Origin: an uncultured Oceanisphaera sp.
Lineage (GTDB): Bacteria; Pseudomonadota; Gammaproteobacteria; Enterobacterales; Aeromonadaceae
DNA length: 64,000 bases
Assembly (NCBI RefSeq): GCF_947495715.1
Contig: NZ_CANLZU010000014.1
Span: forward strand, 1-64,000
Direction of reading: 5' to 3'
Positions within the stretch are counted from its first letter, which is position 1. Every line of letters starts with the position of its first letter. The notes beneath the pieces are model-generated. The model did no database searches, was not told the origin of the DNA, and saw only the letters and a program-made list of their open reading frames with translations. Shown here in pieces: positions 37,683-42,987 of the stretch. The translations under genes were made by a program, and so were the position numbers.

Positions 37683-39941
37683 TTAACGTCCGGCGCGCAG
37701 CAGTCCGCCCAGTCCACGCTCTTCCAGATAACGGCCGAACAGCCCCTTGAACAGGCCGGTATTCTGGTGACTCAGGGCTTCCTGCAACAATTTCTGCAAC
37801 TCATCGGCGCGCGACTGACGCACGATATATTTAATGCGCATCAGGTTGCTGTTGTTCATGCTGAAACGCCGATAGCCCATGGCCAGCAACACCAGCACCC
37901 CGATGGGGTCACCGGCCAGCTCGCCACAAATGGACACGGGTTTGGCATGGCGGCGAGCCGCATCGATGATCTGCTGCAAGGCACGCAATACCGCCGGATG
38001 CAGAGCATCGTAAATATCGGCCACCCGGCCGTTGTTTCTGTCTACCGCCAGCAGATACTGGGTCAGATCGTTGGTACCTACCGACCAGAAGTCCACCAGC
38101 GGGGCCATGTCCTGTAACTGGTAGAGCAGTGCCGGCACCTCTATCATCACCCCCAGGCTGGGGTAACGGATGATGCCCTGCTGGTCGGCGGTTTCGGCCG
38201 ACACCTCACGCCAGGCGCGATCCAGCATTCTGCGCGCGACCCGTATCTCATCGAGACTGGTCACCATCGGCAACATGATGGACAGGTTGTCCAGCCCCTG
38301 ACTGGCCCGCAGCATGGCCTTCAGCTGTACCAGAAAGATTTCGGGGTGGTCCAGGGTCAGGCGAATACCCCGCCAGCCGAGAAAGGGGTTTTCTTCCACG
38401 ATGGGGAAATAAGGCAGCTGCTTGTCACCGCCCACATCCAGGGTACGCATGCACACCGGCTTGCCGACATAACTGCTCATGACCCGGCGATAGCTGATGA
38501 CCTGCTCCTGCTCGGAGGGAAAGCGATCACGCATCATGAAGGGAATTTCGGTACGGAACAGCCCTACCCCATCGGCGGTGTCGTTCATGGCAATATCGGT
38601 ATCCGCACTCAGACCCGCATTCAGCAGCAAGGACACGGTAACCCCGTCCAGGGTAACGGAGCTTTCATTGCGCACCGTATCGAAGAGCTCGTCCATCTGC
38701 TCTTCTTCGGCCATCAGGCGGCGGTACTCGCGCAGGACCGAAGGCACCGGCTCCACCAGCAGGTCACCGTTGTAGCCATCGACGATCAGGGTGCGATCTT
38801 CCAGCAGCTCGAAGGAATGATCGATGCCCATCACCGCCGGAATGCCCATGGCACGAGCCAGAATGGCGGCGTGAGAGTTGATGGAGCCCTTGGCGGAGAC
38901 GATGCCCTTGAGCTTGCTGCGGGGGATTTCCGCAATCAGGGTAGCGCTGATTTCATCCGCCACCAGAATGATGGGCTCATCCAGGGTCAGCAGCCCATCA
39001 TCTTCGTGGATTAGCCGGGTCAGCAATCGCTGGCCCAGATCACGAATGTCCGCCGCCCGCTCGCGCAGATAGGGATCCGACATCACCGAAAACTGGGCTA
39101 TCTGTTTTTCACAGACCCGCTTGACCGCACTGCCGGCAATCCAGCCCCGCTCGATTTGCTCCCGGATCAGCCCGATGAACACCGGATCCTTGAGGATATA
39201 CTGATACACCTCGAACACCGCCACCGACTCGCTGGCCTGCGACTCCTTGAAGCGCAGCGCCATGCCGTTCAGCTCGTCTTCTACCTGCACCAGCACCCGG
39301 TCGAGCCGCTCGTGCTGCACGGCGGCATTATCCGCCTTGCGCTCCTTCACCTGGCTCAGCTCGACGCGAGGGCGCCACACCCAGGCTCGACCAATCGCCA
39401 CACCGGGAGAGCCCGCCAGGCCACGCAGCATGCCGTGCCAATTGGGCGAACGCAGGTTACCCTTGGCCTCGGCATGAGCGATGACGGTAGCCAGCTGAGA
39501 AGCCAGTGTCACCAGAAACGATTCTTCTCCCTCTTCAAACAGTCGCACCTGTTTCTGCTGCACCACCAGCACCCCCAGGGTTTTACGCTGATGAATGATG
39601 GGAGCACCGAGAAAGGATTTGAAAGCGTCTTCGCGCGCTTCGGGCAGATACTTGAATTTGGGATGCAGCTGGGCATCGGCCAGGTTGATCAGTTCTTCCT
39701 TTTCCCCGATCAGGCCGACGATGCCCTCGCCCAGCGGAATGCGTGCGTGACCGACGGCCTTGGCAGCCAGACCATCGGTCGCCGCCAGCAGGTAATTCTG
39801 CTCATGCTCCTGGCGCAGATAAATGGAGCAGCAGTCCACCCGCATGGCATGACGGGTCTGGCGAACCAGTTCACTCATGGCGCCATTGAGGTCAGAGCTG
39901 GCCGTTACCTGCTGAACGATTTCCCGCAATTCCTTTAACAC
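37683..39941 (-). CDS. ptsP: Nitrogen PTS enzyme I (PtsP, EI-Ntr)
   Basis: 752 residues. An N-terminal GAF domain (about 15-165) is followed by the enzyme I phosphohistidine domain with the PEP-accepting His at about 357 in GSINSHAAILARAMG, then the C-terminal PEP-binding barrel (EENPFLGWRGIRLTLD, DFWSVGTNDLTQYLLAVDR). It phosphorylates NPr, which controls EIIA-Ntr and links nitrogen status to potassium and other regulation. It follows rppH by 25 bases and precedes lgt, as in E. coli. Confidence 0.97.
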   Translation of the reverse strand: MLKELREIVQQVTASSDLNGAMSELVRQTRHAMRVDCCSIYLRQEHEQNYLLAATDGLAAKAVGHARIPLGEGIVGLIGEKEELINLADAQLHPKFKYLPEAREDAFKSFLGAPIIHQRKTLGVLVVQQKQVRLFEEGEESFLVTLASQLATVIAHAEAKGNLRSPNWHGMLRGLAGSPGVAIGRAWVWRPRVELSQVKERKADNAAVQHERLDRVLVQVEDELNGMALRFKESQASESVAVFEVYQYILKDPVFIGLIREQIERGWIAGSAVKRVCEKQIAQFSVMSDPYLRERAADIRDLGQRLLTRLIHEDDGLLTLDEPIILVADEISATLIAEIPRSKLKGIVSAKGSINSHAAILARAMGIPAVMGIDHSFELLEDRTLIVDGYNGDLLVEPVPSVLREYRRLMAEEEQMDELFDTVRNESSVTLDGVTVSLLLNAGLSADTDIAMNDTADGVGLFRTEIPFMMRDRFPSEQEQVISYRRVMSSYVGKPVCMRTLDVGGDKQLPYFPIVEENPFLGWRGIRLTLDHPEIFLVQLKAMLRASQGLDNLSIMLPMVTSLDEIRVARRMLDRAWREVSAETADQQGIIRYPSLGVMIEVPALLYQLQDMAPLVDFWSVGTNDLTQYLLAVDRNNGRVADIYDALHPAVLRALQQIIDAARRHAKPVSICGELAGDPIGVLVLLAMGYRRFSMNNSNLMRIKYIVRQSRADELQKLLQEALSHQNTGLFKGLFGRYLEERGLGGLLRAGR

Positions 39942-39966
39942 TGCCGCCTACTCCTGTGTCGATGGG

Positions 39967-40479
39967 TTACCGATGTCGCTTGCGACCGTCTCGGCGGCCT
40001 TGCTCTGCCATCACAATAGGCGCAAATTCCCTCAGCACCCGTCGATATACTTCCCGTTTGAAAGAAACCACCTGGCGTACCGGGTACCAATAGCTGACCC
40101 AGCGCCAGTCATCAAACTCCGGATGCCCATGACAACCAAACTCGATGTGTGATTCATGATCCGATTCCAACCGCAGCAGAAACCATTTCTGCTTTTGACC
40201 GATGCAGACGGGATTACTGTCCCATCTCACCAGACGCTTGGGTAGCTTGTACTTCAGCCAGTGGCGGGTAACCGCCAGCAAGGTGACATTTTCGGGCCTG
40301 AGCCCGATCTCTTCGTACAGCTCCCGGTACATGGACTGCTCCGGCGTTTCGCCATCGTCCACCCCGCCCTGGGGGAACTGCCAGGAATGTTGCCCGTAGC
40401 GTCTGGCCCATAACACCTGGCCTTTGCGATTGCAGATCACTATGCCTACATTGGGACGAAAACCGTCGCCATCTATCAC
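39967..40479 (-). CDS. rppH: RNA pyrophosphohydrolase
   Basis: 170 residues starting with GTG at 40479 ([22 protein letters not shown]). The Nudix box [20 protein letters not shown] lies at about 38-57 with the metal-binding glutamates. It removes pyrophosphate from mRNA 5' ends and so starts RNase E-dependent decay. First gene of rppH-ptsP-lgt-thyA. The DnaA-box-rich region lies immediately upstream. Confidence 0.97.
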
Positions 40480-41154
40480 GCAATCACCAGACTAAAAAAA
40501 TAACATAAAGACGATTGTTCCATATTCCCCTATTCCCGGCAAATGATGCTGTCGGCGCCAGCGTGATAATCGATGTTGAATAACTTGTGTTCTTGTCAAT
40601 AGTTATGAACAGAAAAAGGATCGTCGCGGGATCGCTTTCCCCCAATTTATGTGGATAAGCTTGTGATAAAGGCTGTATAGCTTGAGATCAGCTCTTTCTT
40701 CCAGCTTGAACAACAGGGTGATCAAAACATAAGACCGGATTAAAAACACTAAAAAATCAGACAATTAACTTCAAAAAAAAGGATCGAGCTGGATCTTTTC
40801 ACAGTCCGACTCAAATTGACTATCGTGTTAGTAAGTCTCGGTGCTCAAAGATCGAACAACGGCAACTTATCCACAAACACCAGGTAAACAAAGCGTTAAC
40901 GGTAAGAAAAAAAAGCCGTTTTTTGTCGTTTTGAGCGCCGTAAAATCGTCGGACGGCAGCGGTAGGCAGTTATCCAGAATTTCTGTGGATAAGGCTGTGC
41001 AACAGCATGTTTATACTCGGGTAAAACCGGTATATCATGCGGCCGCTGAAAAGAGCAATAACATGCCACCGATAAGCCATTTTGAATCATGTGGTTATAA
41101 CAATTACTGGCTCACTGGTCAGATTTTTTCCTACCTGTGGAGGGCGGTTATATT
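40480..41154. promoter_or_regulatory. Putative DARS2-like DnaA-reactivating region (rppH-mutH gap)
   Basis: A 675-base AT-rich gap without a gene. DnaA boxes: TGTGGATAA at 40650-40658, TTATCCACA at 40867-40875, and a facing pair TTATCCAGA at 40970-40978 and TGTGGATAA at 40984-40992, five bases apart. Several GATC sites lie at about 40619-40633, 40686, 40719, 40782 and 40792, and an A-rich tract is at 40739-40780. In E. coli the mutH-rppH (ygdP) gap is DARS2, where clustered DnaA boxes with IHF and Fis sites convert ADP-DnaA to ATP-DnaA. Position and boxes match. IHF and Fis sites were not firmly located. The promoters of rppH and mutH must also lie here. Confidence 0.75.
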
Positions 41155-41832
41155 TTGAACAATCCTGATTGCCGTCCTGAATCGATTCCGGCGCTGCTGC
41201 TGCGCGCCGAGCAACTGGCCGGTCTGTCACTGAGAGAGCTGGCCCAATCATTTGATATTCCGGTGCCTTCCAATCTGCGGCGAGACAAGGGCTGGGTGGG
41301 CCAGCTGCTTGAACTGGCGCTGGGCGCCAGCGCCGGATCCAAGCCGGAGCAGGACTTTCCCGAGCTGGGGGTCGAGTTGAAAACGATTCCCATAGACGGT
41401 CGTGGCAAGCCACTGGAGACTACCTTTGTCAGCGTGGCACCGCTGACGAACATCGGCGGCCTGCGCTGGGAAGACTCCAACGTGCGCAACAAGTTATCCC
41501 GGGTACTATGGATACCGGTGCTGGGTGAACGCAGTCTGGCCCCCGGCGACAGGATCATCGGTCAGCCGTTGCTGTGGAGCCCGAGCGAGCAGGAAGAGCG
41601 GTTATTACGCCAGGACTGGGAAGAGATCATGGAGCTGATAAGCCTGGGGGAAGTGCAGAACATCAGCGCCCGTCACGGCCAGGTACTGCAGCTCAGGCCC
41701 AAGGCCGCCAACGGCCGGGCATTGACCGAGGCGGTGGGTCAACAGGGCCAGCCCATCATGACCTTGCCACGCGGCTTTTATCTTAAAACCGGCTTCACCG
41801 CGGCCCTGCTGGCCCGGCATTTCATGCTGTAA
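41155..41832 (+). CDS. mutH: DNA mismatch repair endonuclease MutH
   Basis: 225 residues if the TTG at 41155 is used, which has GGAGG eleven bases upstream; a GTG at 41137 would add six residues and place GGAGG inside the gene. The catalytic triad is visible as Asp67, Glu74 and Lys76 ([12 protein letters not shown]), at the same spacing as E. coli Asp70, Glu77 and Lys79. It nicks the unmethylated strand at hemimethylated GATC under MutL control, so the organism should have Dam. Divergent from rppH across the DnaA-box region. Confidence 0.95.
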
Positions 41833-42987
41833 GCGGCTCCGGCTCCCTTAACCGCCAGATCAACAGTGCCACCAGCAGGATCCAGGGGATCGCAAACAGG
41901 TTAAGCCAGGCCCAGCCCAGCATCACCAACCCCTGACCGGCAAACAGACTGCCCATCGCCGCCGCCGAGAACACCATAAATTCGTTGATCCCCTGCACCT
42001 TGGCTTTTTCCACCGGCTGATAACTGAAGGTCAGCAGGTGGGTAGCGCCGATAAAGGTAAAGTTCCAGCCGATGCCCAACCACAGCAAGCCCCACCAGTA
42101 ATTCCAGAACCCCTGCCCCGACAGGTTGATCATCACACTCAGCAGCAAGGCCGAGCAGCCCCAGAGGATCACCCGTCTGGTAGAAAAGCGGCGGATCAGG
42201 GCGCCGGTGAAAAAAGCCGGCACAAACATGCCCAGCACGTGCCACTGGATCACCTGAGCGGTAGCGAAAAAATCATGCTGATGATGATTCATCGCCAACG
42301 GCGTGGCGGTCATGATCAGCACCATGATGCCGTAGCCAATCATGCCCGACGCCACCGCCGCCAGCAGTAACGGCTGGCGGAACAGTTCCCGATAACTTCT
42401 TACCCGCTCATGCCGGTTCACCGGTACCGCCCTGGGCAATGGCAACAGCAGGATCAGCAGCAAGGCCACCACATAGAGCCCGAACAGACCATAGAAGGCA
42501 CCGGCATAGGGATTACCCTGGTACCATTGCTGGGACCAGATAGCCAGGTTGGGCCCGATTACCGCCGCCAGCACGCCACCGGCCATCACCATACTAATGG
42601 CTCTGGGATGAAATTCGACGCCGCAGGACTCCAGCGCCGCAAACCGATACTGCTGACCCACGCCGATGGCGATACCGATCAGAAAGGTCCCCGGGTGAAC
42701 ATCCCCAGGCTCGACTGCAGCAGCCCCTGCATCGCTACCCAGGTACCAGAGAGTCCCACCAGATTACCGATTACAAAGCCGACCTTCCTGCCCAGCTTCT
42801 GCATCAGATGTGCGGCAGGCAGTGTCGAGATAATAAGGCCGAGAAACTGGCAGGCTATCGGCAGGGTGATCAATGACGGATGCGCCGCCAGTTGCTGGCC
42901 GATCAGCGCCGAGATCGACACCAGCAGAATATTGCCCGACATCAACAGCGCCTGAGCCACGGCCAGACCCCAAACGGAAATAGGCAT
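41822..42987 (-). pseudogene. MFS transporter broken by a frameshift (or sequencing error)
   Basis: Two frames together make one 12-span major facilitator transporter of about 388 residues. The N-terminal part (42679-42987, MPISVWGLAVAQALLMSGN...QSSLGMFTRGPF) runs into a TGA. Shifting by one base near the CCCCGGG run at 42689-42695 continues as TFLIGIAIGVGQQYRFAALESCG into the second part (41822-42661). Insertion of one base restores the reading frame. The substrate is unknown; the LMQKLGRKVGF motif between spans 2 and 3 is MFS-typical. The 3' end overlaps the mutH 3' end by eleven bases. Confidence 0.8.

Follow-up and report, generated by a model that had tools for sequence, protein, structure and literature searches.

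The gap between rppH and mutH in this Oceanisphaera-type bacterium of the Aeromonadaceae carries a cluster of DnaA boxes, which raises the question of whether it is a counterpart of E. coli DARS2 and, if so, which of its boxes would do the work. According to published reports, DARS2 is a main route by which active DnaA is regenerated in E. coli, with the facing boxes I and II releasing ADP and with IHF and Fis activating the site, which was studied as a 455-bp fragment.

Within the window, the whole 64,000-nt stretch of DNA analysed here, the gap lies between divergent rppH and mutH genes, as in E. coli MG1655. The encoded MutH shares 64% identity with E. coli MutH, and among the matches listed (the best 80 of 514 relatives) its closest counterparts come from an unclassified gammaproteobacterial MAG (95%) and Oceanisphaera litoralis (94%). 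The original prediction of three perfect boxes, one near match and a facing pair five bases apart proved correct at every position: perfect boxes (TTATNCACA) lie at 40650 (−), 40867 (+) and 40984 (−), the near match TTATCCAGA lies at 40970 (+), and 40970–40978 and 40984–40992 face inward across a 5-base spacer. The many GATC sites and AT-rich tracts described there were also found: the gap has 7 GATC sites where 2.2 would be expected (P about 0.006), and its G+C content is 41.6% against 57.4% for the window. Four further sites came to light, namely a near box at 40603, a box I in degenerate form at 40636 and two sites of the box III type, at 40662 and 40996. From left to right, the locus reads as follows.

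39967–40479, minus strand: rppH (RNA pyrophosphohydrolase), left border of the gap (ORF list, syntenic with E. coli rppH)
40576–40584, minus strand: weak DnaA-like box TTATTCAAC, two mismatches, inside a conserved TTGAATAACT element (Aeromonadaceae alignment and II-anchored footprint, also in E. coli)
40603–40611, plus strand: box 0, near box TTATGAACA, one mismatch, 47 bp before box II (box scan)
40636–40644, plus strand: degenerate box I, TTTCCCCCA, three mismatches, located where the published E. coli core has its box I (array alignment)
40650–40658, minus strand: box II, perfect TTATCCACA (box scan)
40662–40670, minus strand: box III, TTTATCACA, two mismatches, 3 bp from II (array alignment)
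40755–40767, plus strand: IHF-like site AATCAGACAATTA, one mismatch, 105 bp after the start of II (consensus match)
40847–40858, plus strand: Fis-site-like motif AAAGATCGAACA, just before box V (alignment with the E. coli motif AAAGATCAACCA)
40867–40875, plus strand: box V, perfect TTATCCACA (box scan)
40970–40978, plus strand: box I′, TTATCCAGA, one mismatch (box scan, array alignment)
40984–40992, minus strand: box II′, perfect TTATCCACA (box scan, array alignment)
40996–41004, minus strand: box III′, TGTTGCACA, two mismatches, 3 bp from II′ (array alignment)
41085–41097, plus strand: second IHF-like site AATCATGTGGTTA, one mismatch, 101 bp after the start of II′ (consensus match)
41155–41832 (start approximate), plus strand: mutH, right border of the gap (ORF list, with an inferred TTG start)

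Boxes, GATC sites and AT-rich DNA look origin-like at first sight, and a chance cluster would be the other trivial reading. The whole window contained 4 perfect boxes against 1.17 expected, a number of at least four being reached in 6 of 100 window shuffles, and with one mismatch allowed it contained 33 boxes, about equal to the 30.3 in shuffles, so that the clustering rather than the total number of boxes is unusual. Among 20,000 first-order Markov copies of the 675-bp gap, at least one perfect box occurred in 2.9% and three in none, and 3,000 such copies contained no facing 9-5-9 pair whose two boxes together had one mismatch or none. When 675-bp stretches were slid along the real window, 13 of 2,533 held three boxes, and the starts among those listed, the first three (40325–40375), gave stretches overlapping the gap. 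Chance was dropped on the grounds that none of the 20,000 simulated gaps had three boxes and that order and spacing are conserved. A replication origin was dropped because the neighbours are rppH and mutH rather than an oriC gene neighbourhood, in agreement with the original prediction that the flanking genes are not origin-like. As arrangement, neighbours and the matching E. coli locus identify DARS2, we consider either trivial reading extremely improbable.

The corresponding E. coli gap (NC_000913.3, about 2969080–2969590) contains two arrays that agree in geometry and orientation, TTATTCACC-5-TGTGGATAG-3-TGTGAAGAA on the rppH side and TTATCCCAG-5-TGTGGATAA-3-GGTGTAAGA on the mutH side, and only two perfect boxes, II′ and one taken as box V. 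In the window, the rppH-side array (40636–40670) and the mutH-side array (40970–41004) share the same 9-5-9-3-9 geometry and orientation. The II-to-V distance is 20 bp longer than that of E. coli. Box order and orientation match E. coli DARS2, with IHF- and Fis-type motifs between the arrays, which together with the divergent rppH and mutH upholds the claim that this is the same intergenic gap as E. coli DARS2. With the gap as a DNA query against 5,426 E. coli genomes, 10 matched, and among the matches listed there were only 27-base ones at an E value of 9, indicating that the homology with E. coli consists of short sites and their spacing rather than alignable sequence. An Rfam search of 39900–41900 gave no match. 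In E. coli, the annotated ygdT (b4610; L003 5331–5477) overlaps box V and part of the mutH-side array, and this gene call looks doubtful because the conservation there is that of DnaA boxes.

The quality of the two arrays differs between the two organisms. Mismatches in boxes I/II/III are 3/0/2 on the rppH side and 1/0/2 on the mutH side of the window, as against 1/1/1 and 3/0/3 in E. coli, which places the intact facing pair on the opposite side from E. coli. Published primers deleting “DnaA box I-III” end directly at both edges of the E. coli rppH-side array (PMC4585315), and the published E. coli core is therefore taken to be the rppH-side array; the assumption that the facing pair 40970–40992 is the equivalent of that core did not survive this comparison. 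The mutH-side array of the window has the DARS2 arrangement of I and II head to head at 5 bp with III in tandem, and at the E. coli position of the core, on the rppH side of the IHF and Fis sites, boxes II and III are kept and box I has three mismatches. The site was accordingly filed as a DARS2 variant and not as an E. coli-type DARS2.

The conservation of this anatomy was surveyed in 142 mutH loci, at least three of them duplicates. Besides the window and E. coli, these were 80 named loci, the best 80 of 514 and hence skewed to close relatives, and 60 order-wide loci that we chose among the 286 genomes in which MutH was found, out of 295 in the order. The original prediction had made conserved box order in close relatives a check, and the order −, +, − of the perfect boxes was found in all 34 Aeromonadaceae loci, the window included. 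A perfect minus-strand box 90–420 bp before mutH was present in 80/80 named loci, 30/60 order-wide loci, the window and E. coli. The frame of box V followed by II′ 112–124 bp on, with at most one mismatch between the two boxes, was found in 100 of the 142 loci, including the window and E. coli, and was scarce beyond the closer relatives (20/60 order-wide against 78/80 named). The V–II′ distance was 116–120 in 99 of these framed loci and 119 in 66. II′ was perfect in 99/100 and V in 94/100, a quality that is partly built in since framed loci were chosen for at most one mismatch across V and II′; with up to two mismatches per box, the frame was found in 117 loci and II′ was perfect in 105. Of the 42 unframed loci, 24 had no array, nine had one and nine had two.

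A tblastn search with the window rppH as query found rppH divergently upstream of mutH within 1.3 kb in 118/142 loci. Thirteen of these 118 had no perfect box, with gaps of 96–170 bp in six, 391 and 450 bp in two and 804–1041 bp in five, and 97 of the remaining 105 had gaps of 591–800 bp, suggesting that a long gap mostly, and not always, accompanies the boxes. The six box-less loci with gaps of 96–170 bp (L101, L103, L104, L130, L132 and L144), which we counted in favour of the DARS2 reading, look as if the site had been deleted cleanly. The original prediction further held that the site is kept with its neighbours, which stood for mutH and did not always stand for rppH: in Xenorhabdus and Photorhabdus, 0/11 loci (L040, L053, L061, L062, L069, L071, L073 and L081–L084) gave an rppH match in the sequence at the locus, while the controls L037 and L038 gave one, and the rppH-side pair was intact in 11/11, with one mismatch in each box. 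The open reading frames upstream in L040 and L083, named by eye, look like leu-type and other genes. The rearrangement in Xenorhabdus and Photorhabdus thus seems to have broken outside the boxes.

Four E. coli proteins have homologues in the same genome as the window, at identities of 72% for Fis, 75% for IhfA, 65% for DiaA and 57% for Hda. A search for IHF sites, which the original prediction had proposed, found two IHF-like sequences at one mismatch each by sequence match, and the one at 40755 falls between the E. coli core position and box V. Its alignment column is conserved, and it has no mismatch in L008 and L011; in several Aeromonas and Oceanimonas loci scanned, no site with at most one mismatch was found at that place after II. 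For comparison, we took the E. coli IBS1-2 to be TAAAATATTCATT and AGTCAATGCATTA, 3 bp apart, which fits the published account (PMC4245941). The motif AAAGATCAACCA before box V is common to E. coli and to some Vibrio-type and Oceanisphaera loci, with variants elsewhere, and in E. coli it presumably lies in the FBS2-3 region. Neither the window motif AAAGATCGAACA nor the E. coli motif scored in a strict scan for the Fis consensus, though the two align. Separately, positions 40781–40796 of the window read GGATC...CTGGATC, with two GATC sites after an A-tract, and are conserved in most aligned Oceanisphaera, Zobellella and Oceanimonas loci. Judged by its position, its boxes and its motifs, the rppH–mutH gap is almost certainly the DARS2 locus and very probably the DARS2 version of this bacterium, and its DNA is likely to have nucleotide-exchange activity.

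Which array would serve as the core? Box I has exactly three mismatches in all 34 Aeromonadaceae loci, whereas the 43 enteric loci average 1.02. With box II called at up to two mismatches, a box I of at most one mismatch accompanied it in 0/34 Aeromonadaceae, 42/43 enteric, 7/7 Vibrio-type, 6/6 Shewanella-type and 3/3 Plesiomonas-type loci, and in 2/5 other loci in which II was found. Box I′ has at most two mismatches in 33/34 Aeromonadaceae loci. That the intact facing pair has moved to the mutH side is a fact of sequence in the sampled members of the family, and the mutH-side half seems to hold their only intact core. Since the rppH-side box I has three mismatches, the mutH-side pair is probably the competent one here.

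The rppH-side array may nevertheless still be the working core as in E. coli, its weak box I tolerated with the help of IHF, Fis and box 0 and the mutH-side array being accessory. This side does keep II, III, box 0, the IHF-like site, the Fis-type motif and box V, and a box 0 equivalent (plus strand, at most one mismatch, 45–48 bp before II) is present in 33/34 Aeromonadaceae (the exception, L005, ends too close to box II to tell), 43/43 enteric, 7/7 Vibrio-type, 6/6 Shewanella-type, 3/3 Plesiomonas-type and 2/5 other framed loci. The degenerate box I also shows fair conservation among loci of the Oceanisphaera group, and in the Aeromonas loci listed it reads TTGCCCACC or TTGCTCACC-like. In E. 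coli, however, boxes I and II are reported to be crucial, and two of the three mismatches of TTTCCCCCA fall in the TTAT half, and the same number of mismatches recurs throughout the Aeromonadaceae loci, making a working rppH-side core rather unlikely here. To the left of this array, at 40576–40611, two weak boxes (TTGAATAACT ... GTTATRAACA) are conserved, at a spacing that E. coli and the window share; they may represent a promoter of rppH or additional sites for DnaA. In L091–L094 (family f12), the rppH side has two perfect tandem boxes (TGTGCATAA-3-TGTGCATAA or TGTGTATAA) in place of the usual strong/weak pair.

When each box was allowed no more than two mismatches, the facing pair was found on the rppH side only in 37 of the 100 framed loci, on the mutH side only in 36, on both sides in 26 and on neither in one, a Zobellella locus, while about 14 with neither would be expected under independence; this is a pattern and not a test, as the loci share ancestry and the Aeromonadaceae may have lost box I only once. 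We counted in favour of a mutH-side core here that 99 of the 100 framed loci keep a facing pair on one side or both and that every named locus has a perfect II′-type box. Counted against it were the Zobellella locus, the scarcity of the frame and the box I′ of Aeromonas, which at two mismatches is no better than that of Shewanella-type loci, which also keep box I.

Published E. coli data bear on the mutH-side array from both sides. DnaA ChIP-seq (PMC11317965) reports three DARS2 regions with enrichments of 78, 199 and 213, the peak of 213 being assigned to a double box with the letters of II′ and its neighbour, at a 2-bp spacing as scored by the authors, and the remaining two to the rppH-side double box. 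The same table gives up to 218 for oriC and 213 for datA, which places the E. coli mutH-side box among the strongest DnaA sites listed, and this top peak was counted for a mutH-side core. On the other hand, a DARS2 plasmid without the DnaA-box core is reported no longer to stimulate initiation, and boxes IV–VI, the right half of E. coli DARS2, were dispensable under the conditions of PMC4245941, so the E. coli mutH-side array is insufficient alone.

A second IHF-like site beyond the mutH-side array gave a mixed result. With 35 genus labels equally weighted, a site with at most one mismatch at +99 to +107 from II′ was found in 60% of framed loci, against 0–7% in 19 control windows, and at +105 exactly in 36% of loci, against a mean of 0.6% per offset. 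At least one locus had it in 21/35 labels, which was counted for the mutH-side core, and no locus had it in the other 14, which was counted against; the latter include Aeromonas (0/22), Oceanimonas (0/3), Enterobacter (0/2), Mangrovibacter (0/2), Plesiomonas (0/1, with 1/2 in a matching second Plesiomonas-type label), Vibrio-type, Shewanella-type and other labels. We call the site IHF-like only, because the recurrent AATCATGCTATTAT can also be read as an extended −10 element, and it may be a mutH promoter element. The footprint also has an A-tract at +91 to +95, ahead of the site. In this it resembles a known IHF site, which favours IHF over a −10 element.

The locus could instead bind DnaA without nucleotide exchange, for titration or for cell-cycle control of mutH and rppH transcription. 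Several promoters are under DnaA control. In E. coli, DnaA is reported to bind in vivo mainly to tandem double boxes 2–3 bp apart (PMC11317965), and both double boxes are kept here. All seven Vibrio-type loci keep the rppH-side pair and a lone II′, with I′ and III′ decayed, which indicates that II′ could have a role of its own. A scan of 40450–41200 found two promoter-like matches (1.3 in shuffles) and two terminator-like matches (0.7 in shuffles). Tandem binding, however, needs no facing box five bases off, yet nearly every framed locus keeps such a pair, and the rppH-side pair of Xenorhabdus and Photorhabdus survives without an adjoining rppH; we therefore judge a pure binding role quite improbable.

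Taking these observations together, we lean, by a modest degree, towards a DARS2 with two alternative cores of which the active one here is probably on the mutH side. ADP-DnaA would be held head to head on the non-coding DNA of the gap, release its ADP and so be regenerated as ATP-DnaA. The exchange-competent facing pair would probably be 40970–40992, the mutH-side array thus performing ADP release, while the rppH-side double box II–III, IHF, Fis and box V would act as loading and timing parts, in a layout where the two arrays enclose an IHF-like site, a Fis-type motif and box V, and a second IHF-like site lies beyond the mutH-side array. More tentatively, and with somewhat more doubt than belief, we speculate that DARS2 in general is a two-core machine, in which equivalent arrays, each with an IHF site about 100 bp beyond box II, surround a shared Fis/box V switch, with lineages having kept one, the other or both, and in which DnaA of the Aeromonadaceae is recharged on the mutH-side core. 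If so, the core studied experimentally in E. coli would be only one of two. The right half reported as dispensable has a perfect box in all 80 named relatives, gives the top DARS2 peak in the published E. coli ChIP-seq and often has an IHF-like site, and the Aeromonadaceae case bears on the role of this second array and on how a replication-control site shifts its working part in place. Our literature search for a second core, box VI or DARS evolution found no second array named in titles or the openings of abstracts among the papers listed, and earlier notice of it is possible. No paper combining DARS2 and Aeromonas was found among those searched.

The same genome was searched for further facing pairs. 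At up to three mismatches to the window-derived pattern, only the window site and G000:C20:68008 were found, the latter (68008–68030; L002 1501–1523) being a complete array of the DARS1 type that lies upstream of uvrB, where E. coli has DARS1. In the uvrB upstream regions of 40 relatives, drawn from 55 genomes that gave a UvrB match out of 56, an array in the same orientation was present in 31 and absent from nine. By sequence, the genome therefore has both DARS sites, and the DARS1-type array was counted, with the factor homologues, for the DARS2 reading of the gap. A looser search gave further pairs at one to three mismatches in ten places, against three for the reversed control. One facing 9-5-9 pair at G000:C9:5631–5653 (L145) has one mismatch (TTATCCACA, five bases, TGTGAGTAA) and is a possible third DARS-like site.

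Compared with known systems, the mutH-side array of the window resembles the core of E. coli DARS1 (TTATCCA.., five bases, TGTGGATAA), which lies at another locus, the bioD–uvrB gap, and is contrasted with DARS2 in published work as independent of IHF and Fis. The datA locus is likewise described as a DnaA-box cluster with an IHF site, and differs in its locus, its neighbours and its opposite function, ATP hydrolysis. The original prediction that the site is older than the enteric lineage agrees with what is already in print: DARS2 homologues with conserved sequences are reported from V. cholerae and Shewanella denitrificans, outside the enterics (PMC8682772), the DARS2 core is described as common to gammaproteobacteria related to E. 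coli (PMC4245941), and a review describes DARS1- and DARS2-like sequences as conserved in many proteobacteria (PMC10380432). The seven sampled Vibrio-type loci, none of them V. cholerae by name, are the opposite of the Aeromonadaceae in having only the rppH-side facing pair. With E. coli DARS2 itself, the window shares the position, the divergent neighbours, two same-orientation 9-5-9-3-9 arrays, box V and the IHF- and Fis-type motifs between them, and departs from it in the side on which the facing pair is intact.
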